Shown in pieces: positions 2,253 through 26,129 of a stretch of DNA of 40,530 nucleotides (the stretch's first letter is position 1; every line of letters begins with the position of its first letter). The notes under the pieces are model-generated. The model worked only from the letters and a program-made list of their open reading frames with translations, made no database searches and was not told the origin of the DNA. The stretch spans positions 1 to 40,530 of the forward strand of contig JBBJNV010000030.1 of the NCBI GenBank assembly GCA_037721215.1. The letters run 5' to 3'. This DNA comes from Gemmatimonadaceae bacterium (lineage in GTDB: Bacteria > Gemmatimonadota > Gemmatimonadetes > Gemmatimonadales > Gemmatimonadaceae). A program made the translations under genes and the position numbers.

Positions 2253-5608
<3,356 letters not shown>

Positions 5609-5677
5609 CTAATCTAAGGCTGAAATGGGATTTACGCAATGGCTGATTGATAGACTAAGCCGTTACGCCAGAATAAC

Positions 5678-5986
5678 TTAGCGTCTCAACAGGAATCGGA
5701 TTTTCCTGATCGGTACCCGCCCCTCGACGCCGTTCAACGCCCCGAGTAGCTCCGGCTCCAGCAGCGACAGCTCAGTCATCCACCCATGGTTGTTAACCGC
5801 AACGAACAACGTTCCGTCCTGCGTCACCGAGATCGGCCAGGTCACCGCCGCAATACTGTCGCCGACCAGCAGCGGCCAGTCCGCTATCGACTCCGCCTGC
5901 TCGACACGCTTCTTCAGGCCGCGCCGCGCCAGGAAGCCCGAGACTGCATCTGACATGGGAACAGGTGCGCCTTTTTTTCTGGTCAC
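5678..5986 (-). CDS. dciA: DciA-like replicative helicase loader (DUF721)
   Basis: A 102-residue protein of the DUF721/DciA family, which loads or assists the replicative helicase DnaB in bacteria that lack DnaC or DnaI. Family features are the ADWPLLVGDSIAAVTWPISV block followed by TLFVAVNNHGWMTELSLLEPELLGALN and a final basic strand (IRKIRFLLRR). The start is GTG at 5986. It overlaps the recF stop in a GTGA (5983-5986), so it is probably translated by coupling. Position between recF and gyrB is the classic location of this family. It is shorter than many DciA proteins and has essentially only the KH-like domain. Confidence 0.85.
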   Translation of the reverse strand: MTRKKGAPVPMSDAVSGFLARRGLKKRVEQAESIADWPLLVGDSIAAVTWPISVTQDGTLFVAVNNHGWMTELSLLEPELLGALNGVEGRVPIRKIRFLLRR

Positions 5987-7101
5987 GCGGCGGCTCTCAG
6001 AACTCCGCCGTGAATTTCTCGCCTCTCCAGGTCCAGCAGTTCGGGGGGAATGTCGCTCTCCCTGGGTACCACGAGAATCGTCTGCCCCAGGCCCGCCACG
6101 CGCAGCAGCTCGAGAATCTTCGCCGACCGTCTCACGTCGAGCTCGGCAAATGGATCGTCCAGCAGTAACAGCGGCTCGATGCCCCGCGCCGTCCGTAACG
6201 TCGCGCCTTCCAGCATCCTGAGCGCAATCGCCGCTGTGCGCTGCTGGCCCGCTGAGCCGAACAGGCGCAACTCGCGGCCGTTCAGCATGAAGGCCAGGTC
6301 GTCCCGGTGCGGTCCCGAATGGGTCAAGCCGCGTTTGATATCCATCTTACGCTGTCTCTCGAACGCGTTCGCAAGCGCCCCTCGTACGTCGGACTCGGCT
6401 GCTGCTGCACTCCTGTAAGTCATCAGCGACTCGCCCGGCTCGCCTACGGATGTAGCCAGCGCCGAGAAGTGGCTGCTTCGCTCGCTGACCCAGCTCGCCC
6501 GCTCGCAAATAAGGGTGGCCCCGTGCTCAGCCAGCGCCGGCTCCCACACCGCGACCGCCGTGCCGTTCCCGTTGCCCCGGCCCGCGTCCCGAAGCGACGC
6601 GTTCCGACGGGCGAGTGCCGCACGGTATTGCTGCAGGGCGCGAAGATAAGGTCTTGAGGAAAGCGCCAGGACCAGATCGAGAAACCGCCGCCGTTCGCTT
6701 GGCGGACCTGCGATCAGCTGAATATCGCGGGGGGAGAACATCACCGACGGCAATGCTCCAAAAGCGTCGCTCAATCGCGTGATCACCGAGCCGTCAATCG
6801 ACACCTTCTTTCTCTTGCCGACACTCTCGAATCCCACCGATAATTCGTGTGCCGACTCCGTGCGGGCCCGAAAGCCAAGGTGAAAACCCCTGGCACCGAA
6901 ACGTATGAGATCGCGGTCTCGGGCACCGCGCACGCTTCTCAACACCTGCATGTAATAGATGCCTTCGAGAAAATTGGTCTTACCCTGGCCGTTTTCGCCG
7001 ATGATTGCCACACCTGCCTCCGGCAGCTCGACCGACATCTTCTCGATATTGCGAAAATCCGTAAACGTGGCCCGGGTCAGCCAGGCCTTGCTGGCCGTCA
7101 C
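5983..7101 (-). CDS. recF: RecF recombination/gap-repair ATPase
   Basis: A 372-residue SMC-like ABC ATPase that recognises single-strand gap junctions and helps RecO/RecR load RecA. The Walker A motif GENGQGKT is at residues 35-42, the ABC signature region GSAGQQRT at 282-289, and the Walker B/D-loop LLLLDDPFAELD at 311-322. The region HSGPHRDDLAF (261-271) is also typical of RecF. The start is GTG at 7101, overlapping the enoyl-CoA hydratase stop by GTGA; the end overlaps dciA in the same way. The order hydratase, recF, dciA, then gyrB forms one minus-strand unit. dnaA and dnaN, common recF neighbours, are not in this window. Confidence 0.95.
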   Translation of the reverse strand: MTASKAWLTRATFTDFRNIEKMSVELPEAGVAIIGENGQGKTNFLEGIYYMQVLRSVRGARDRDLIRFGARGFHLGFRARTESAHELSVGFESVGKRKKVSIDGSVITRLSDAFGALPSVMFSPRDIQLIAGPPSERRRFLDLVLALSSRPYLRALQQYRAALARRNASLRDAGRGNGNGTAVAVWEPALAEHGATLICERASWVSERSSHFSALATSVGEPGESLMTYRSAAAAESDVRGALANAFERQRKMDIKRGLTHSGPHRDDLAFMLNGRELRLFGSAGQQRTAAIALRMLEGATLRTARGIEPLLLLDDPFAELDVRRSAKILELLRVAGLGQTILVVPRESDIPPELLDLERREIHGGVLRAAA

Positions 7102-10531: not shown

Positions 10532-11805
10532 TCTACCGTGTTTTCCGTACGCTGGCCGCACCATGCTGCCTGGTTGCAGGCGCGTGCGCGACGCAAGCTC
10601 CGTCCGTTGTGACGGCGCCAGCGCCTGTAGCCGCAACGCAGAATTCCGTCACCCTCTCCACTGCGACCGGGGGCATTGTCGGCACACTCAATCTGCCAGC
10701 GGCAAGTCTGCCCGTACCGGTGGTGCTTATTATCGCCGGGTCCGGACCAACCGACCGGGATGGCAACAGCCCCGCGCTTCCGGGCAAAAACAACAGCCTC
10801 AGGATGCTTGCCGACGGCCTTGCCTCGAGCGGCATCGCTTCGGTGCGTTACGACAAGCGGGGAATCGCTGGCAGTAAGGCGGCAGCCGGGGCAGAGCAGG
10901 ACCTTCGCTTTACTCATTACGTCGAGGACGCGACTGCCTGGGCCCAAAAACTCCGGGCGGACTCCCGGTTCTCGAGCGTGACAATCGTGGGCCACAGCGA
11001 AGGCTCGCTTATCGGAATGGTGGTTGCCCGCGAAGCAGAGGCCGACGGATACGTTTCAATTGCCGGTGCCGGCCGAAAGCCCGCGGAAATAATCATTGAA
11101 CAGCTTTCGGGGCAGGTCCCGCCGGAAATGCTGCGACAATCACAGCGGATTCTTGATCAGCTATCGCGCGGGGAAACGCCCGACTCCGTGCCTCCCGCTC
11201 TGTACGCTCTCTTCAGGCCGAGCGTTCAGCCGTACATGATGTCGTGGTTCGGGTACAGTCCGACTGACGAAGTCGCCAAACTGACCATCCCCGTTTTGCT
11301 GCTTCAAGGCTCGACCGATCTCCAGATTACCAGGAAGGATGCGAAGCTCCTTTCAGCAGCGATTCCCGCCGGCCGGTATGTATTGATCGACGGAATGAAT
11401 CACGTTCTGAAGAGTGCGGCAGCAGATCGCCAGGAGCAGATGAAGCTGTACAGCGACTCGACGGCCCCCGTCGTGCCGCTCCTTGTTGAAGAAATCGCGA
11501 CCTTCGTGAACGGCCTGCCCAGGCGCGTAGCAGTACATCGTTCGCCGCCGCTGTTTGGGCCGGACAAGATCAAGCATTTCTTCATCTCGGCGTTTATCGG
11601 AGCAGCTGGCTTCGGCGCACTCCAGGCCGTTGGCGCGGGCCGGGACCTGGCGCTGGCCGGCGCGCTTGGAGCGACTGCGGCTGCGGGCCTCGGCCGCGAA
11701 GTTTACGACCGGCGGACAAAGGGCGATTTCAGCATCGCCGACCTCGTATGGGATGCGGCGGGCGCCGGGGCCGCCCTGCTCGTAATCAACAAAACACAGC
11801 GATAA
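10528..11805 (+). CDS. lipoprotein: alpha/beta hydrolase fused to YfiM-like domain
   Basis: A 425-residue predicted lipoprotein with two parts. The leader ends in a lipobox-like LVAGAC with Cys20. Residues about 60-330 form an alpha/beta hydrolase with oxyanion-type IAGSGPTDRDG, nucleophile elbow GHSEG (Ser157), Asp264 (LLQGSTDLQI) and His292 (DGMNHVLK), so the triad looks intact. Residues about 345-425 resemble the E. coli lipoprotein YfiM (DUF2279-like): DKIKHFFISAFIGAAGFGA, GREVYDRR and DLVWDAAGAGAAL. GTG start at 10528 overlaps the glpK stop (GTGA). The substrate is unknown. A membrane-proximal esterase or lipase is an inference. The fusion is unusual. The hydrolase call is firm and the YfiM relation is from recognised motif order. 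Confidence 0.8.
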   Translation: MIYRVFRTLAAPCCLVAGACATQAPSVVTAPAPVAATQNSVTLSTATGGIVGTLNLPAASLPVPVVLIIAGSGPTDRDGNSPALPGKNNSLRMLADGLASSGIASVRYDKRGIAGSKAAAGAEQDLRFTHYVEDATAWAQKLRADSRFSSVTIVGHSEGSLIGMVVAREAEADGYVSIAGAGRKPAEIIIEQLSGQVPPEMLRQSQRILDQLSRGETPDSVPPALYALFRPSVQPYMMSWFGYSPTDEVAKLTIPVLLLQGSTDLQITRKDAKLLSAAIPAGRYVLIDGMNHVLKSAAADRQEQMKLYSDSTAPVVPLLVEEIATFVNGLPRRVAVHRSPPLFGPDKIKHFFISAFIGAAGFGALQAVGAGRDLALAGALGATAAAGLGREVYDRRTKGDFSIADLVWDAAGAGAALLVINKTQR

Positions 11806-11858
11806 AGGCCGATTGTGCGCCCTGTGACTTGCCTGTGCCACGCCCTATATTCCTCTCC

Positions 11859-12305
11859 GTGAAAGCGCGCTCGAAATTTCTCCTTGGCGGCGTCGTCGTG
11901 CTTGGATCGGCCGGCTACCTCATGGCCAGCTCCATTCGCGACACGGCGGTCTATTACCTGACGCCCGCAGAACTTTCGGCCAAGACAGTCGCTGACCCTA
12001 CTTTCTTCGGGACCGGTGTCAAAGTCGGAGCGCGAGTCGTTCCGGGCTCGATTGTCCGCGAAGCCGGCGGTCGTCAGGTTGCGTTTGTAATGACCGACGG
12101 AGCCACCAACTACAACGTCGTGTACCGTGGGATCACGCCGGACACGTTTACTGATGGAGTAGATGTGGTCGTCGAAGGCAGGCTCGGCCGCGACGGTATT
12201 TTCCACGCAACGACACTTCTCGCGAAGTGCGCTTCGCGATACGAAAACGCACCAGAAAAATACAAGTCCACCCCCGGCTACCGCGCGGCGGCTGACAGCG
12301 CGTGA
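11859..12305 (+). CDS. ccmE: cytochrome c maturation haem chaperone CcmE (Cys variant)
   Basis: A 148-residue membrane-anchored haem chaperone of System I, which holds haem covalently in the periplasm before handing it to CcmF/CcmH. The GTG start at 11859 gives a short basic N-terminus, one membrane helix (residues 7-23, LLGGVVVLGSAGYLMAS) and then the OB-fold beta domain (VYYLTP, VPGSIVRE, VVVEGRL, FHATTLLAKCASRYE). Canonical CcmE binds haem through His in an HxxxY motif; here the position is Cys124 in CxxxY (Cys124, Tyr128). This variant is known from some archaeal and sulfate-reducer CcmE proteins. The stop overlaps ccmF by GTGA. The longer frame from 11748 has no family similarity and overlaps the previous gene. 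Confidence 0.9.
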   Translation: MKARSKFLLGGVVVLGSAGYLMASSIRDTAVYYLTPAELSAKTVADPTFFGTGVKVGARVVPGSIVREAGGRQVAFVMTDGATNYNVVYRGITPDTFTDGVDVVVEGRLGRDGIFHATTLLAKCASRYENAPEKYKSTPGYRAAADSA

Positions 12306-14350
12306 TCCTGGTCGGCGAGCTGTCGCTGTGGGTCGCACTCCTCATGGCGATCTGGGCGGCAACAGTATCCTTCGCCGGCGGTGCACTTAATCGGCGTGAC
12401 CTTGTACTGAGTGGCGAGCGCGCTGTTTACGCCACACTCGGCATGGTCGTGCTCGCATCGGCGGGCCTCTGGACGGCGCTGTTCACTCACGATTTTTCGA
12501 TCAAGTACGTCGCGTCGTTCTCGAGCGCGAACCTCCCGAAGATCTACACTTTTACGGCGTTCTGGGCGGGGCAGGCCGGGTCGATGCTGTTCTGGTGCCT
12601 CATCCTCGGCATTTATGCGGCGCTGGCCGTGTACTCGAACCGCACGCGCAACCGGGCGCTGATGCCCTATGTGTCGGGCACGATGGCGGTGGTCCTCGTT
12701 TTCTTTCTGGCCACGATGTGCCTCGGCGCGAATCCATTCGAGCGGCTGGACTGGATTCCACCCGATGGTCGCGGAATGAATCCGCAGTTGCAGAATCCCG
12801 GTATGGCGATACATCCGCCGACTCTTTATCTGGGCTACGTGGGGACCACGGTTCCGTTCGCGTTTGCCATTGCGGCGCTGCTCACACGGCGGCTCGACGC
12901 CGAGTGGCTGGCTGCCGTCCGGCGGTGGACGCTTTTCTCATGGTTCTTCAATACGATAGGAATTCTGCTCGGCATGTGGTGGGCCTACGTCGAGCTCGGA
13001 TGGGGCGGCTACTGGGCTTGGGATCCGGTCGAAAACGCATCGCTCCTGCCGTGGCTGGTCAATACCGCATTCCTGCATTCAATCATGGTGCAGGAAAAAC
13101 GGGGAATGCTCAGGAAGTGGAACGTGACGCTGGTGGTTTCGACGTTTCTTTTGTCGATTTTCGGCACCTTCATTACGCGTAGTGGAATTATCTCGAGCGT
13201 GCATTCCTTCGCCCAGTCGCCGGTGGGCAACTGGTTCGCGGTTTTCCTGGTGTTCGCCATCGCCGTCACCGCGTATCTCGTCACGACCAGACTCAAGGAT
13301 CTCGAATCCAGGGCCAATCTCGAGAGTATGGTCAGCAGGGAAGCGGCATTTCTGTACAACAATCTGATTCTGGTCGGCATCGCGTTCTCGGTGCTCTGGG
13401 GCACCGTGTTCCCGATCATCACCGAAGCTGTTCGCGGCGAGAAGATCACGGTGGGGCCGCCGTTCTTCAATGCGGTCAATGTGCCACTCGGTCTGTTGCT
13501 GCTTCTCCTCACCGGTATCGGGCCCCTCATCGCCTGGAGGCGCGCTTCAATCGGCAACCTCCAGCGCCAGTTCGCGGCGCCGGTGATTGCCGGCGCGACA
13601 ACCTGTTTCATCGTGCTGGTGTTTGGAATGCGTGACGTCACCGCGATCCTGGCCTACAGTTTCGCCGGGCTGGTGACGATGACGATTACGCAGGAGTTCT
13701 ACAAGGGAGTCGGTGCGCGTCGGAGGATGTACGACGAGCAGGTAGTGCCGGCGTTTGCGCGATTGATTGCCCGGAACCGTCGGCGCTACGGCGGCTACAT
13801 CGTACACATGGGGATCGTTGTGATCTTCGCCGCGTTTGCAGGCCTGGCGTTCAAGAAAGACTACGACGTGACGATGAGGGCGGGTGATGTAAAGGAGCTC
13901 ACCGACCCGTTCGGGAGGAAGTGGCGGTTCGTGAGCCAGGGCGTATCCCGGTATGACGTGCTCAACCGGCAGGTAACGGCGATTGCTCTGGATGTCAGTC
14001 GCGATGGGGAACGGCAAGGCGTACTGACGAGCGAGAAAAGACAGCATGTCGACAGCCGTGGCGCTCCTACCTTCGAGCCGTCGACTGAAGTTGGAATCAT
14101 GGAGTCGTTCAAGGAAGATCTGTATGTGGTGCTCGCTGGTGTCGGTGCAAGCGACACGGCGGAGATGCGGATTACGTTCAACCCACTCGTGCGATGGGTC
14201 TGGATCGGTGGTGCGCTGATGGCGATTGGTGGCCTGATCGTGATGTGGCCGCAAGCCCGGCGGCTCCGCCCGGAAAGCGGATACGCGGCCGTGATGCCAT
14301 CGTTCGATGCGGGTGAGCCGGCGCCGGCGAGAGAGCTGGTCGAGGCGTGA
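12302..14350 (+). CDS. ccmF: haem lyase subunit CcmF
   Basis: A 682-residue polytopic membrane protein that attaches haem to apocytochrome c with CcmH, receiving haem from CcmE. The tryptophan-rich WWD motif lies at residues 226-251 (WWAYVELGWGGYWAWDPVEN), bracketed by the periplasmic haem-ligand histidines His171 (MAIHPPTLY) and His259 (FLHS). The two histidines expected for the internal b-haem are in SGIISSVHSF and GGYIVHMG. Length is normal for the family. GTG start at 12302 within a GTGA overlap with ccmE; the end overlaps the next gene by GTGA too. ccmA, ccmB, ccmC and ccmG are not in this window. Confidence 0.95.
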   Translation: MILVGELSLWVALLMAIWAATVSFAGGALNRRDLVLSGERAVYATLGMVVLASAGLWTALFTHDFSIKYVASFSSANLPKIYTFTAFWAGQAGSMLFWCLILGIYAALAVYSNRTRNRALMPYVSGTMAVVLVFFLATMCLGANPFERLDWIPPDGRGMNPQLQNPGMAIHPPTLYLGYVGTTVPFAFAIAALLTRRLDAEWLAAVRRWTLFSWFFNTIGILLGMWWAYVELGWGGYWAWDPVENASLLPWLVNTAFLHSIMVQEKRGMLRKWNVTLVVSTFLLSIFGTFITRSGIISSVHSFAQSPVGNWFAVFLVFAIAVTAYLVTTRLKDLESRANLESMVSREAAFLYNNLILVGIAFSVLWGTVFPIITEAVRGEKITVGPPFFNAVNVPLGLLLLLLTGIGPLIAWRRASIGNLQRQFAAPVIAGATTCFIVLVFGMRDVTAILAYSFAGLVTMTITQEFYKGVGARRRMYDEQVVPAFARLIARNRRRYGGYIVHMGIVVIFAAFAGLAFKKDYDVTMRAGDVKELTDPFGRKWRFVSQGVSRYDVLNRQVTAIALDVSRDGERQGVLTSEKRQHVDSRGAPTFEPSTEVGIMESFKEDLYVVLAGVGASDTAEMRITFNPLVRWVWIGGALMAIGGLIVMWPQARRLRPESGYAAVMPSFDAGEPAPARELVEA

Positions 14351-14931
14351 AGGTCACGCGGCGTGAATTTGTTGGTGCACTGGCCGGAGGAGCAGCGTCT
14401 TTTGCGGCCACCCGCAACGTTACTGCGATGCAGATCACGCAGCCGGTCGTCGGTCCTCCAATGCAGCAGGACGCGTACCGGCCGGTGAAGCTCGAGGCGC
14501 GAGCAGGCGCCGGTCCGTCGATGACTGCTGAACAGCGCGATGACCTCGAGCACGACATCAAGTGTCAGTGCGGATGCGTGCTCGATATCTATACGTGTCG
14601 CACCACGGACTTCACGTGCGGCGTGTCGCCGGCCATGCACACCGATGTCATGGGGCTGGTCGCTGGCGGGTTCGGGGCGCAGGAAATCCTCAACGCGTTT
14701 CAGGCGGTTTATGGGGAACAGGTTCTGATGGCTCCGCTGAGGCAGGGGTTCAACTGGGTGGGATATCTGATGCCATTTGCGGCGCTGATCACTGGCGGCG
14801 TGACGATCGCCGCGCTGATCAGACGCTGGGGTGCGCGAGGCAAGCTGCATGCGTCGGCCCCCATTCCGGCCCTGGATGCAACTCCTGCGGAGATGGAGGC
14901 ATTGCAGGCCGCAATACGTGACGACCGATGA
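14347..14931 (+). CDS. CcmH/CycL-like cytochrome c biogenesis protein with Tat-like leader
   Basis: A 194-residue protein at the position of CcmH, the thiol-reducing partner of CcmF that keeps apocytochrome cysteines reduced. A cysteine-rich segment DIKCQCGCVLDIYTC (Cys73, Cys75, Cys77, Cys84, then Cys91) replaces the usual LRCxxC motif and is followed by VAGGFGAQEILNAFQAVYGEQVL, which matches the CcmH helical part (IMxxYG-type). A C-terminal membrane helix spans about 137-158. The N-terminus TRREFVGALAGGAASFA looks like a twin-arginine leader, which is unexpected for a CcmH. GTG start at 14347 overlaps ccmF (GTGA); the stop overlaps the next gene as ATGA. Confidence 0.82.
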   Translation: MKVTRREFVGALAGGAASFAATRNVTAMQITQPVVGPPMQQDAYRPVKLEARAGAGPSMTAEQRDDLEHDIKCQCGCVLDIYTCRTTDFTCGVSPAMHTDVMGLVAGGFGAQEILNAFQAVYGEQVLMAPLRQGFNWVGYLMPFAALITGGVTIAALIRRWGARGKLHASAPIPALDATPAEMEALQAAIRDDR

Positions 14932-15272
14932 CGGCACTTATCGTTGGAACGTTGCTCGCGCTGACGGCGCTGTCGTTTGTGCTGTATCCGATGCTGACAA
15001 GCGCCGGCGAATCGGTGACAGTTCCCGAAGCGCGCCCGATGGTTTCCAGCGATACAAGCCAGGCTGCGGCGGTCGATGCGCTGCGCGAGATCGAATTTGA
15101 TCGAGCTACAGGCAAGCTTTCGGATTTCGACTACGATTCGCTCAAGGCTTCGTATACGCAGCGCGCTTTGACGGCGATGCGCGGCGAAAAAGGGAGTGTT
15201 TGCGAGAACTGCGGTCCGCGCTCCGAGACTGGCGCCATCTTCTGCTCGAATTGCGGGACAGCTCTGAGCTGA
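14928..15272 (+). CDS. small membrane-anchored CcmI-like protein with zinc ribbon
   Basis: A 114-residue protein with an N-terminal membrane helix (residues 2-22) and an acidic helical part containing ALREIEFDRATGKLSDFDYDSL. This pattern is typical of the CcmI/CycH N-terminal segment, an apocytochrome chaperone. It ends in a zinc-ribbon-like CxxC...CxxC (Cys92/95 and Cys106/109). The TPR domain of full-length CcmI is absent. ATG start at 14928 overlaps the ccmH-like stop by ATGA, which places it in the ccm operon. The role in apocytochrome handling is inferred from operon position and the short helical motif. The zinc ribbon is seen directly from the cysteine spacing. Confidence 0.7.
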   Translation: MTALIVGTLLALTALSFVLYPMLTSAGESVTVPEARPMVSSDTSQAAAVDALREIEFDRATGKLSDFDYDSLKASYTQRALTAMRGEKGSVCENCGPRSETGAIFCSNCGTALS

Positions 15273-18027: not shown

Positions 18028-19464
18028 ATGACCCGTAGCGTCACATTGTCAAGCGTGTTGGCACTGAGTTTGTGGCCCGGACTTCTCGCTGCTCCAAATA
18101 CGCGCGAACTCCACGCGGGCGCTTCGCCGCTCGAGGCGAGCCGGTTTGAGAATCCGCCGGCGATGGTCAATCTGTCCAGGGTTCCCCGGACTGTCGAAGT
18201 GAAGCTCGCCGCCGCGGAAACGAAGCTGTCGATCCTTCCCGGTACATCCACTGATGCGTACACGTACGAAGGGAAGCTGCCCGGTCCGACGCTTGAGGTG
18301 CGGGAGGGCGACCGGGTAATTGTGCACTTCACGAATAACCTGCCGGTCGAGACAACTGTGCACTGGCACGGACTGCACCTCCCGTACGAATCAGACGGCA
18401 GCCCTTTTCATCCGATCCCGCCAGGTGGGAAGCGTGATTATAGCTTCACGCTGCGGCCAGGCAGTGCGGGCACCTACTGGTATCACCCGCATCCCGATCA
18501 CAAGACAGGATACCAGATAGCGAAAGGACTTTACGGCGCGATCATCGTGCGCGCAAAGGACGATCCGCTCCCGGCGACACTCACCGAAAAGCTGATCGTC
18601 CTTTCCGACAACCGGTTCGACGAGGCCAGCGGCGTCGCCATTCCCGAGCCGCACACCGTGCAGGGGCTGATCGATCGCGAGAACGGCCGGGAGGGCGCCG
18701 TCATTCTCGTGAACGGGCGCGTGACTCCGACCATCGACATCCGGCCCGGCGAAGTGCAGCGATGGAGGGTTGTAAACGCGTCGGCCGCGCGGGTGTTCCG
18801 GCTTGCCATTCCGGGGCACACCCTTACACAGGTCGGCACCGATGGCGGGTTGTTCGAGAAACCGGTGGAGATGAAGGAGATCGTCATCGCGAACAGCGAG
18901 CGAGTAGAGCTGCTCGTTAGAGGCACGGGGAAGCCCGGCGAGACCGCCGTTCTTCAAACGCTTCCGTACGACCGCTACGTGCCGCAGACGCGTCCCGCTG
19001 ACTGGAAAAATTCGCGCGACGTGCTGACGCTTCGCTACACGAACCAGCGGGCCGCGGCTGCGTTCGTGATCCCTGCGACGTTGCGCCGGATCCCCGCTCT
19101 CGACACAACGAAGGCCACCGTGCGGCGGACGATTACGCTCTCGCAGGGGCTCATCAACGGCAAAACGATGGACATGAACCGGATCGACGTCAGCGCGAAG
19201 CTGGGCGCGACAGAGATCTGGGAGATCGAGAACATCGTCGGCATGGACCACCCGTTCCACCTGCACGGATTTCAGTTCCAGGTGCTCGACCGAAATGGCA
19301 TTCCGGAAAAGGACAGGCGGTGGAAGGATTCGATCAACCTGCCGAAGCACGAAACTGCGCGATTCATAGTGAGGTTCGACAACTACCCGGGAAAGTGGAT
19401 GTTCCATTGCCACATTCTGGATCACGAAGATCATGGAATGATGGGAATTCTCGAAGTCAAATGA
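18028..19464 (+). CDS. multicopper oxidase
   Basis: A 478-residue periplasmic multicopper oxidase with three cupredoxin domains, which couples one-electron oxidation of a substrate (metal ion, phenol or protein) to four-electron reduction of oxygen. All four copper-binding segments are present: HWHG (112-115), WYHPH (151-155), HPFHLHG (408-414) and HCHILDHEDHGM (460-471) with type-1 Cys461, His466 and axial Met471. The leader (residues 1-22, LALSLWPGLLAA) is Sec-like without a twin arginine, unlike many CueO-type enzymes. No Met-rich copper-tolerance insert is evident. The stop overlaps the next frame by ATGA (19461-19464), and the downstream tandem cytochrome is a candidate electron donor. 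Substrate is open: laccase-like, cuprous or manganese oxidase. Confidence 0.93.
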   Translation: MTRSVTLSSVLALSLWPGLLAAPNTRELHAGASPLEASRFENPPAMVNLSRVPRTVEVKLAAAETKLSILPGTSTDAYTYEGKLPGPTLEVREGDRVIVHFTNNLPVETTVHWHGLHLPYESDGSPFHPIPPGGKRDYSFTLRPGSAGTYWYHPHPDHKTGYQIAKGLYGAIIVRAKDDPLPATLTEKLIVLSDNRFDEASGVAIPEPHTVQGLIDRENGREGAVILVNGRVTPTIDIRPGEVQRWRVVNASAARVFRLAIPGHTLTQVGTDGGLFEKPVEMKEIVIANSERVELLVRGTGKPGETAVLQTLPYDRYVPQTRPADWKNSRDVLTLRYTNQRAAAAFVIPATLRRIPALDTTKATVRRTITLSQGLINGKTMDMNRIDVSAKLGATEIWEIENIVGMDHPFHLHGFQFQVLDRNGIPEKDRRWKDSINLPKHETARFIVRFDNYPGKWMFHCHILDHEDHGMMGILEVK

Positions 19465-19478
19465 CAAAGGGAGGCAAC

Positions 19479-20672
19479 ATGATGAGACGGCTTAACAACG
19501 CGTGGCGGGTGTGCGGATCATCGGGCGTTGCTGTTCTGTTCGCGGGGTGCACGGGGCAGACCGCTGTGCCGGAACCGGCCGCCACGGCCATCGCATCGAG
19601 CCAGGCACCGATGGACCAGGTTCGGCGAGGCAGGGCAGCCGTCCTGTCGAGCGCATGCGGAGACTGCCACGGACCTGGCGTGTCGAACCCGTCGCGTGCC
19701 GGCTGGCTTGCGGGTTGGGCGAGTCCGCAACAGGATATGCCCGTGGGGCCTTTCATGACCCGGCCGCGCAATCTCACGCCAGACAACGCCACTGGTACTG
19801 GGCATTACACCGAGCGCCAGATCTTCAACGCATTGCGCTACGGGCTTCGGCCCAGCGCAACGCCTGACCTCGAGATTACCTCGAGCACTCCCGGCCAGGG
19901 CAACCACCCCGCAAAACCGAACTACCTCGCTCCGACCATGCCGTGGCTGGAGTGGAGGCACAAACCCGATGAGGAGCTGCGCGCAATTGCTGCATATCTC
20001 AAGCGTGGTCTCGCACCAGTCACGAACAAGGTGCAGGACAGTCAGGCGCCTCCGGATCTCTGGGCAAGCGAGTTCACGGTTGCCAAACATGGTCCTTATC
20101 CCGCACTCCCGTTCCCCACAGCGAACGAGGCGGCAGGCCGTGGGGATCAGGCAAAGGTGACCCGGGGTCGAGCGGTATTAATCAAGAGTGGTTGTGGGGG
20201 TTGCCACGGTGGCGGGGGAAATCCGGCCGCCACTGGATGGCTTGCAGGGATCAAAGACTCGACCGGCGATTTCGCGATTGGTCCCTGGAAGACCCGGCCA
20301 CGCAATCTCACTCCTGACAACACGACGGGGATGGGGCGCTTCAGCGAGCGGCAGATCTTCAACTCGCTGCGATACGGGCTTCGCCCGGGAGAAACGCCTG
20401 ATGTGGAGATCACTTCGACCACACCCGGCCAGGGCAACTTCCCGGCGGTTCCCAAATATCTCGCGGTGCCCATGCCGTGGCCCTCGTGGCGCCACATGGC
20501 TGACGAAGACCTTTGGGCTATCGCAGCCTACCTCAAACACGGCGTCAAGCCAGTTAGCAACCGAGTCGCGGACAGTGAGGGGCCGCCAGACTTCTGGGCC
20601 GGCGAATATACCGTTGCGAAAATCGGAACTTATCCCGCGCAACCGTTTCCAAGCGTGAACGAACGGAAGTGA
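19479..20672 (+). CDS. lipoprotein with two tandem cytochrome c domains
   Basis: A 397-residue predicted lipoprotein (lipobox VLFAGC, Cys24). Two homologous halves follow, each with a haem c site (CGDCH at 60-64; CGGCH at 239-243), GWLAG, the block RPRNLTPDN and the run ERQIFNALRYGLRP or its near copy, a probable axial Met in PTMPW or VPMPW, and a shared end (AIAAYLK). The offset between halves is 179 residues. I place the start at ATG 19479 (or 19482), behind the Shine-Dalgarno GGGAGG at 19469-19474; the ATG at 19461 overlaps the oxidase stop but precedes that site. The gene is coupled to the multicopper oxidase, so electron transfer between the two in the periplasm is likely (inference). 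It resembles the c-type subunits of membrane-bound dehydrogenases only loosely. Confidence 0.88.
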   Translation: MMRRLNNAWRVCGSSGVAVLFAGCTGQTAVPEPAATAIASSQAPMDQVRRGRAAVLSSACGDCHGPGVSNPSRAGWLAGWASPQQDMPVGPFMTRPRNLTPDNATGTGHYTERQIFNALRYGLRPSATPDLEITSSTPGQGNHPAKPNYLAPTMPWLEWRHKPDEELRAIAAYLKRGLAPVTNKVQDSQAPPDLWASEFTVAKHGPYPALPFPTANEAAGRGDQAKVTRGRAVLIKSGCGGCHGGGGNPAATGWLAGIKDSTGDFAIGPWKTRPRNLTPDNTTGMGRFSERQIFNSLRYGLRPGETPDVEITSTTPGQGNFPAVPKYLAVPMPWPSWRHMADEDLWAIAAYLKHGVKPVSNRVADSEGPPDFWAGEYTVAKIGTYPAQPFPSVNERK

Positions 20673-23366: not shown

Positions 23367-26129
23367 TTGTCTGATCCAAGGTCTATCCGCGGGGTGACCG
23401 CATTTTTTCTCGCCCTAATGGGCGCGATTTTTCCGCGGTCGAGTCCTGCGCAAGGCATCACGGGTGCATCGGTTCAGGGACGTATCGCGAGCGCTTCGGG
23501 AGCGGCAATGCCAGGGCGGCAGCGCGCTGTCAGTGAGCGGTCAACATTCACGGTTCAACGCGATTCAGATCGGCGGCGGTTCCAGCAACGATTTAGTAGG
23601 GATCAGTGCTACGCCCGGAGCAAGTGTGGGCGGAAAAATGATTTCGCTCGAAGCTCTGGAGGAGATTCGCGTCCTGGTCGCGCCCTTCGATGTAAGGCAG
23701 GGTGGATTCTCCGGCGGGCTGATCAACGCCGCGACGCGATCCGGAACAAATCAGCTTCGCGGGTCGGCATTCCTTTCTCATTCCCGTGCGGCGCTGGTTG
23801 GCCGGGACACGGCGGGCGCCAGTACGCCGACGTTCAATATTCTGCAATACGGATTGAGTCTCGGCGGGCCAATTCTCCGGGACCGTGCCCATTTTTTCGT
23901 TGTAGCCGACCTTCAGGCACGCGATGCAACGTTTGCCGGCCCGTCGACTGCCGATCCGTCAACAGGTATCAGCGACTCCACGGCAGCGCGCGCCAGGAAA
24001 GTATTCAGGGATACCTACGGATTCGACCCAGGGGGTAGCGAGTCGCCTGTAATCAACCAGCCAAACCGTAATATCTTCGTCAAGCTGTCGGCTCAACCCG
24101 CTCAAAATCACTGGCTTGAGCTTAGCCACAGCCGCGCCAATGCCAGCAGCTACGTGTTTAACCGGCTGGTTCGCAATCTGGAAGATCGGCAGGGCTGGCA
24201 GCTCTCCAATAGCGGCATCACGCAGCGGTCGAGCAGTGCGACCACGCGGCTGCGAGTGACCAGCGGTTTCGGCGAATTCACAAATGAACTCATCGCGAGC
24301 GCTGGAAGCATCGATGACAACCGGGATTCGCGCATCCGCACCCCCCTTTTCCTCGTGCAGGGCGATCTGTCTGGCAGGTACCTCGCGGCTGGTTCCGAAA
24401 AGAGCGCTCAGCGCACTGCCATCGAACAGCGCAGTATCGAGCTGACCGACAACGTGTCGTGGCACTACGGCAATCACATGATCACGGCTGGAACCCAGAA
24501 CCAGTTTCTCAGGGACAACTTCTTCCTGGGTGCCTGGGGGGTATGGACGTTTGCAAACGTCGGCGCACTTGAGCGTCGCGAGCCGTCGCGTTACGAGGTC
24601 GCACTCCCACTCCGCGAGGGAGGGCCACTCGCGGACTACTCTGCCAATCTGCTCGCAGGGTATCTCCAGGACAGGTGGAGCGTGACGCCACAGTTTACGC
24701 TGACAGGGGGACGAGGATCGACGTCCCCATCATGGATTCACCTCTTCGCAACCGGGCGCTCGCTAATAACGCACCCCTCGGCAATATCGACACGGGCGCG
24801 TTTCCATCGGGAAATCGTGTCATCTCGCCGAGGGTTGGATTCTCATGGCATAATCGAAGCTCGATGCTCCGGGGCGGGGTGGGTGGGTTTGCCGGCCGAC
24901 CACTTTTCGCGTGGCTTACGAATGCCTATGCAGGCACCGGGATGGAGCAGACTGTATTGATCTGTAATGCGCCCGGCACCGCGCCCGCGCCAACAACGGA
25001 CATTGCGCGGCTTCCACGAAATTGCATAAACACGCCCGCGGTGCCTGCCCCACCGCGAATCACATATTTTGCGTCAGACTTTCGCTTCCAGCAGGCCATC
25101 AAGTACGTGCTAGGCGTGGACCATCAGCTGGGCCTCGGTTTCACGACTTCGCTCGATGTGATTCATACGAGGACGAGAAATCACCTTCACGTGGGTGACG
25201 TGAATCTGGTAGAGCGTGGAGTTAATGCCGAAGGCCGGATGGTCTATGGAACGCTCTCGACTTCTCAGGGTGGTGTCGTCTCGCACCCAACCCGTGTCGA
25301 CAGTCTGAACTTCGGGCCGGTTTATCGCTTTGGCAATATCTCGGCCGACCGGTCGACCTCGGTTGCGGCAGAGGTCCAGAAGCACTGGACCGGCGGGGGG
25401 CAGTTGCAGTTTGGATACAGCTGGTCGCGGTCGGAAGACGTCATGAGTCTCTTGGGGTTTAACGGACTCGTAATCCTGACAACCAATCCCATCGACGGCT
25501 CCATCGCGAAACGCAACCTCCGTCGGTCGGCGCGGGACATCCCTCACAATCTTGTCGCCACGGCTGTTGTGCCCGTCCGCTACGGACTCACGGCATCGAT
25601 ATTTTTTCGCGCGCGCTCGGGAACCCCTTACGCCTATGTGAATAACGGTGACGCCAATGCCGACGGTACCCAGGGCAACGACCTTGCTTACATACCACAT
25701 GACGCGGCTGATGTCAGCCTGGCGAATCCGGCGGACTATGCGCTGCTGGATGCCTTCATAGACACCGAGTCATGCCTTCGGAATCAGCGCGGTCACATCA
25801 TGTCACGCAACTCGTGCCGCAATCCAGCCGTGCAAAGCCTCGACCTCCGACTTGCAAAGAGTTTTGGTACGCGAAGGGAAGAGAGGTTGGAGGTCAGCGC
25901 CGATGTTTTCAATCTTCCCAATCTGTTGAACCATGGCTCGGGGCTGGTGCGGGAGACGACCGGCCGGGAAGAGACGCAATTGCTGACGGTCGTTGGCTGG
26001 GACGGGGCCGCGAATCGCCCGCGGTATCGAATTCCCACGGCCAGCGGCCAACTCGCCGTGAGAAGGAACGGAATCGTGGTCGATGCGTCCCGGTGGAGAA
26101 TGCAGCTCGCCGCCAGATACAGCTTTTGA
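23367..26129 (+). pseudogene. Oar-like TonB-dependent receptor, broken by internal deletion and frame changes
   Basis: A remnant of a large outer-membrane receptor with an N-terminal carboxypeptidase-regulatory-like domain. A TTG at 23367 starts a secretion leader (FFLALMGAIFPRSSPAQG) and the first strand of that domain (VQGRIASASGAAMPG). At about 23517-23525 the sequence jumps directly, and in another frame, into the late plug domain (LSVSGQHSRFNAIQIGGG, then FDVRQGGFSGGLINAATRSG). Roughly 120 residues are missing there. The barrel continues to the G-run at 24706-24710, where the frame shifts again; one added G would restore LTGGTRIDVP. The last frame runs to the terminal aromatic motif (AARYSF). 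The receptor is thus probably non-functional, unless the assembly is wrong. Substrate unknown. Confidence 0.8.

Follow-up and report, generated by a model that had tools for sequence, protein, structure and literature searches.

Several bacteria are known to carry clusters in which a multicopper oxidase (MCO) gene is accompanied by genes for c-type cytochromes. This arrangement is found in mofABC of Leptothrix discophora and in the ompB clusters of Geobacter, and MofC has been proposed as a putative electron carrier for MofA (PMC5566968). In Nitrosomonas and Nitrobacter, the ncgABC-nirK cluster likewise unites an MCO gene with cytochrome c genes (PMC3603346, PMC5080386), and cytochrome c is able to act as an electron bridge that links electrodes to the MCO bilirubin oxidase (PMC6472588).

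The locus described here lies in a window of 40,530 nucleotides that constitutes contig C30 of the 45-contig genome of a Gemmatimonadaceae bacterium. The Gemmatimonadota are a phylum of soil bacteria of which few have been cultured; to our knowledge, the natural electron donor of most bacterial laccase-like oxidases is not known. The original prediction for this DNA had coupled an MCO to a lipid-anchored cytochrome with two heme domains. We found that many soil Gemmatimonadota carry an MCO-cytochrome pair as a two-gene unit and that the cytochrome is well supported by comparative genomics as being the putative dedicated electron partner of the oxidase. A gene pair of this kind, with one partner retained throughout a phylum, offers a specific and testable donor (or acceptor) for one MCO clade.

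RESULTS

The multicopper oxidase

The locus comprises the following features.

18028..19464, forward strand: MCO open reading frame of 478 amino acids, encoding a three-domain protein of the laccase/metallo-oxidase type with a probable Sec signal peptide
18361..18498, forward strand: MCO copper-ligand motifs 1 and 2, HWHG (residues 112-115) and HPH (residues 153-155)
19249..19441, forward strand: MCO copper-ligand motifs 3 and 4, HPFHLHG (from residue 408) and HCHILDHEDHGM (from residue 460)
19465..19478, forward strand: intergenic stretch of 14 nt with the ribosome-binding site AGGGAGG for the cytochrome gene
19479..20672, forward strand: tandem diheme c-type cytochrome lipoprotein of 397 amino acids from the likely start, with the lipobox FAGC and Cys24
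19614..20141, forward strand: cytochrome domain 1, with CGDCH, TRPRNLTPDN, and TMPW; the extra, divergent copy in the genus of the window
20142..20669, forward strand: cytochrome domain 2, with CGGCH, TRPRNLTPDN, and PMPW; the core copy, which groups with single-domain relatives

The product of the first gene is a member of the three-domain MCO superfamily: Cu-oxidase_3, Cu-oxidase_1, and Cu-oxidase_2 each scored above the Pfam cut-off, and inspection of the sequence located all four predicted copper-ligand segments, including the HCHxxxHxxxxM motif, so that the set of T1, T2, and T3 copper ligands is complete. The fourth segment, HCHILDHEDHGM, includes the type-1 Cys461 and the axial Met. Copper-ligand His residues were invariant across 24 aligned members of the clade, and Met406, close to the T1 ligands, was nearly so. 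A clade-specific loop, PYDRYxPQTRPxxW (residues 313 to 326), is also nearly invariant, occurs in members that lack the cytochrome as well, and could possibly form a docking or substrate surface.

The structure of the MCO was predicted with a pLDDT of 87. By phmmer, profile, and fold comparison, its closest solved relatives were the Campylobacter jejuni metallo-oxidase McoC (3zx1), which was the best match by fold and profile, and the Thermus laccase, with the Sulfurimonas protein 8z59 ranking just after them. Identity as CueO was rejected, with a score of 261.4 against the NCBIfam equivalog cut-off of 525, and the sequence contains no Met-rich segment such as that of CueO. These relationships bear on what we regard as the main rival reading of the pair, in which Fe(II), Mn(II), or Cu(I) would be oxidized at the type-1 site of the MCO, with part of the electrons passing through the cytochrome to the respiratory chain. 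The kinship with the C. jejuni metallo-oxidase and the near invariance of Met406 are in keeping with metal oxidation, as is the proposal of MofC as an electron carrier in Mn(II) oxidation (PMC5566968), but the MCO has neither the Met-rich segment nor the score of a CueO, the MofB and SCO partners are missing from the conserved neighborhood, and an extra electron acceptor is unneeded because an MCO normally delivers its electrons to O2. We consider this reading to be rather unlikely.

The cytochrome

The stop codon of the MCO gene overlaps an ATG (position 19461), and the original prediction drew attention to this ATGA junction. The overlap is present, but the cytochrome probably starts at the ATGATG at 19479, behind AGGGAGG and 14 nt past the MCO stop. 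We rejected the ATGA as the true start because no ribosome-binding site precedes that ATG and because the closest relative (L010) has no overlapping ATG but keeps both the ATGATG and the ribosome-binding site. A GTG-A overlap is used by four relatives (L024, L027, L053, and L074), and most relatives have a Shine-Dalgarno-like sequence and similar spacing between the two genes.

Assignment of the second product as a heme c protein was made at the sequence level, from its CxxCH motifs, a Pfam cytochrome c match (PF00034, above the cut-off), a distal Met, and the Ccm genes of the genome. That its two halves are near copies was confirmed: 109 of 171 aligned residues are identical, CxxCH occurs at residues 60 and 239 of the 397 (offset, 179), and RPRNLTPDN occurs at residues 95 and 273 (offset, 178, reflecting a gap of one residue). 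In alignments, the probable axial Met in TMPW and PMPW corresponds to the Met of PAMPY in dehydrogenase cytochrome subunits of solved structure. All 59 family cytochrome domains have CxxCH and 57 have MPW, with the Met retained in the remaining two.

Two of the predicted attributes did not generalize to the family. A single heme domain was found in 41 of 50 distinct cytochrome loci, and single-domain forms thus prevail to a degree that rules out tandem hemes as a defining feature of the pair; a lipobox was present at just 25 of the 50. The window protein is itself a lipoprotein by its FAGC sequence. Several of the cytochromes with no lipobox begin with a hydrophobic segment, so membrane anchoring may be frequent, though not in every case through lipid. 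Export of both proteins, also predicted, is probable. A subset of single-heme members (e.g., L018, L021 to L025, and L027 to L031) carries two additional cysteines in an insert that precedes RNLTPD (GPCxxxPGAxPCF-like), possibly forming a disulfide.

The predicted structure of the cytochrome was of modest confidence (pLDDT, 67). Sequence, profile, and fold comparisons all placed its domain nearest to the cytochrome subunits of membrane-bound alcohol, fructose, glucose, and aldehyde dehydrogenases (profile E value of 2e-14 against 7w2j; fold Z score of 10.8 against 8gy2, with an rmsd of 2.9 over 127 residues). The domain is homologous to those subunits, but the three heme domains and the associated dehydrogenase gene that characterize them are absent.

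Conservation of the pair and its exceptions

A search at the family level with the cytochrome as query yielded more than 20 strong matches, and for nearly all of them tblastn placed an MCO of 57 to 81% identity directly upstream on the same strand. We then sampled 395 Gemmatimonadota genomes, in which MCO and cytochrome were counted by hand on one draw of genomes. Full-length MCO matches formed a single block at an identity of at least 58%, clear of the next MCOs at no more than 44%. The MCO clade was present in 42 genomes and the cytochrome in 39; 37 genomes had both, 5 the MCO only, and 2 the cytochrome only (Fisher P value of ~4e-44, which overstates certainty because related genomes are not independent and kinship was left uncorrected). 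Adjacency was read directly in the 37 genomes with both genes except G256, in which the contigs are broken at this point, and the cytochrome follows the MCO wherever contigs allow; in G402, the cytochrome contig opens with the final 30 MCO codons (L105). The pair therefore recurs across the Gemmatimonadota in the predicted order and is not a peculiarity of this genome. Control MCOs from the same phylum, 35 to 44% identical, had no such cytochrome nearby.

A wide scan with two peptide patterns, covering 84,980 bacterial and archaeal species that were each represented by a single genome, returned 42 loci, nearly all from Gemmatimonadota; more-distant relatives would be missed by patterns of this kind. 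The outliers were L094, labeled Rhodothermaceae and possibly a misplaced metagenome-assembled genome (MAG), and L123, from an unclassified bacterium, which encodes a single-heme lipoprotein of the cytochrome family at 5845-6543 with an MCO absent nearby. Spread by plasmids was discounted, as plasmid records hold only distant cytochromes, with identities of ~41% or less over half the domain. The single-heme form occurs in Roseisolibacter sp. H3M3-2 (L097), whose RefSeq genome is not marked as a MAG and whose pair may make the partnership testable. Conserved order and strand, co-occurrence, and a phylum-restricted spread are thus properties of the pair.

Some of the unpaired genes reflect incomplete or decayed sequence: the cytochromes without an MCO were at a contig end (G085) or a fragment (G334), and two of the MCOs without a cytochrome were at a contig end (G326) or decayed (G037). 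The other three (G211, G212, and G283) group in a single MCO clade with full support (100/100), and no cytochrome of the family was found anywhere in these genomes, which indicates that retention of the MCO does not require it. Compared with paired MCOs, the cytochrome-less clade (L069 and L071) differs near the type-1 site, with GMDHSFHLHG in place of GMDHPFHLHG and PKRS in place of PKHE, and these changes could mark a lost docking surface.

Evolutionary history

Apparent assembly chimeras were excluded from the trees: L115, a fragment without CxxCH that is joined to an unrelated frame, and L127/L075, where a contig ends in an MCO fused with part of a cytochrome. Distances between MCOs and between core cytochrome domains were correlated (Mantel r of 0.54, reached in 0 of 2,000 shuffles), and many small groups were common to the two trees, as expected for joint inheritance. 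Both trees mix families in some groups, for example L019 (f1) with L042 (f6), which suggests that the pair has been transferred as a unit. In the cytochrome tree, domain 2 of the window protein grouped with single-domain cytochromes and domain 1 was a divergent extra copy. The domains of G195, G398, and G269 were placed the other way around, so the tandem form probably arose at least twice; the deep forks of this tree are weak, and the divergent copies may have been drawn together by long-branch attraction.

Loss has also affected both genes. In G037 (L142, G037:C26, about 4590-6200), the MCO is split between frames and the cytochrome has a stop and a large deletion. G111 has, besides an intact pair at another site (L140), a lone tandem cytochrome (L139, G111:C111, 6880-8111). 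The lone cytochrome is preceded by a brief segment that aligns with the end of the MCO gene, and this second copy appears to have lost its MCO and kept its cytochrome. The latter case and the sub-clade of G211, G212, and G283 with the MCO alone are what might be expected if the MCO were an ordinary laccase or copper tolerance enzyme whose cytochrome is merely coregulated with it, for example by copper or oxygen, with no direct electron exchange. Strict adjacency, joint decay, and correlated divergence in most carriers exceed what coregulation needs, however, and no regulator or copper gene was conserved near the pair at 38 loci and the window; we judge coregulation alone to be improbable.

Genomic surroundings

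Clustering of open reading frames around the 38 loci and the window revealed no third conserved gene family; the remaining clusters were antisense or frame-shifted shadows or were confined to a few loci. Genes for cytochrome c maturation lie a few kilobases upstream of the pair.

11748-15272, forward strand: ccmE, ccmF, ccmH, and a ccmI-like gene; placement not conserved in relatives

These genes make the attachment of heme c possible in this organism. The neighbors of the pair in the window (ccmF, ccmH, and genes for an ABC transporter, CutA, and a TPR protein) are not near it even in genomes of the same genus, so the proximity of ccm is probably due to chance, and a wider operon that includes ccm, the ABC transporter, and CutA was rejected. 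A scan for promoters and terminators yielded nothing above chance that would help to define the transcript.

Two other genes of the window deserve mention. An open reading frame at 10-1362 on the forward strand, apparently cut at the left end of the window, has CALCH and CTTCH motifs and a weak Pfam cytochrome c match and may encode another diheme protein unrelated to the pair. An outer membrane beta-barrel gene (PF25183) at 23464-26129 on the forward strand is divided between two frames that overlap (23464-24960 and 24675-26129), which suggests a frameshift or sequencing error.

The surroundings also bear on whether the pair might handle nitrogen oxides, with the MCO acting on these compounds or supporting a nitrite reductase. 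The precedent is ncgABC, in which an MCO and cytochromes c affect nitrite tolerance (PMC3603346, PMC5080386), but with no third conserved gene there is no conserved nirK beside the pair, a search of the window genome found no NirK that passed the curated cut-off, and the MCO itself scored 70 with the NirK model against a cut-off of 296. We regard such a role as very improbable.

DISCUSSION

The reading that we prefer, and which we hold to be about evenly balanced between right and wrong, is that the pair is a bicistronic Gemmatimonadota unit in which an exported laccase-type MCO would exchange electrons through its type-1 copper with a heme c carrier of its own, likely toward O2. A narrower version, in which the unit would be a soluble-side, nonpumping cytochrome c oxidase branch whose two genes are inherited and lost together, with the MCO fed by the dedicated heme c protein rather than by a small molecule, is tentative and somewhat doubtful. 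For the electron transfer role that was originally predicted, the conserved, ordered, and coinherited pair makes a partnership probable; the direction of flow and the substrate are still matters of inference.

Under the preferred reading, both proteins would be exported, and the cytochrome, tethered to the cell envelope through lipid or an N-terminal hydrophobic segment, would dock on the MCO and exchange electrons with the type-1 copper of that enzyme. Electrons could reach the cytochrome from periplasmic dehydrogenases or from another cytochrome donor, and the cytochrome would hand them to the T1 copper and thence to the trinuclear copper center and O2, yielding water; the tandem form of the window genome would carry two such hemes. 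The dehydrogenase cytochrome subunits serve their periplasmic enzymes as electron relays, and an MCO supplied with O2 acts as a strong sink for electrons, which makes cytochrome to T1 copper to O2 the most natural, and we infer the most likely, direction. The pair is not the main terminal oxidase, since the window genome has a canonical heme-copper oxidase (COX1; no bd oxidase was found in it), and a route through the MCO and cytochrome would therefore be a side branch. It might burn electrons for redox relief or O2 removal or might keep the MCO reduced. If the cytochrome does feed the MCO, the pair would constitute an oxygen-consuming branch apart from the usual heme-copper and bd oxidases.

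Each component has described relatives. The C. jejuni MCO (3zx1) and the Thermus thermophilus laccase (2xu9 and 9cpm) have the same copper ligands as the window MCO, at ~34 to 38% identity, but the Met-rich hairpin of the Thermus enzyme is absent from the window MCO, and we know of no dedicated heme partner for either enzyme. The cytochrome domain has CxxCH, N-[LI]-TPD, and axial MP(W/Y) in common with dehydrogenase cytochrome subunits (8gy2, 7w2j, 8hdd, and 8gy3). Those subunits are multiheme and dehydrogenase bound, whereas the cytochrome of the pair has one or two domains and is encoded next to an oxidase, in a neighborhood that has no conserved dehydrogenase gene.

At the level of the gene cluster, the original suggestion that no system with such a pair had been described proves too strong, given mofA-mofC and ncgA-ncgBC (PMC5566968, PMC3603346), but both are differently built. 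The pair resembles mofABC in joining an MCO to a c-type cytochrome and lacks the adjoining MofB peptidyl-prolyl isomerase; MofA and OmpB are extracellular or outer membrane MCOs of a different subfamily, and the peptidyl-prolyl isomerase or SCO1/SenC chaperone of their clusters is not conserved at the 38 loci and the window. The ncgABC-nirK cluster has nirK and two cytochromes, whereas the pair lacks nirK and joins a single cytochrome gene to that of an MCO of the three-domain laccase type. We found no description of the Gemmatimonadota pair in the open-access literature. Clusters of MCO and cytochrome c genes are an established theme, on which a lone laccase-type MCO joined to a cytochrome that resembles a dehydrogenase subunit appears to be a previously undescribed layout.
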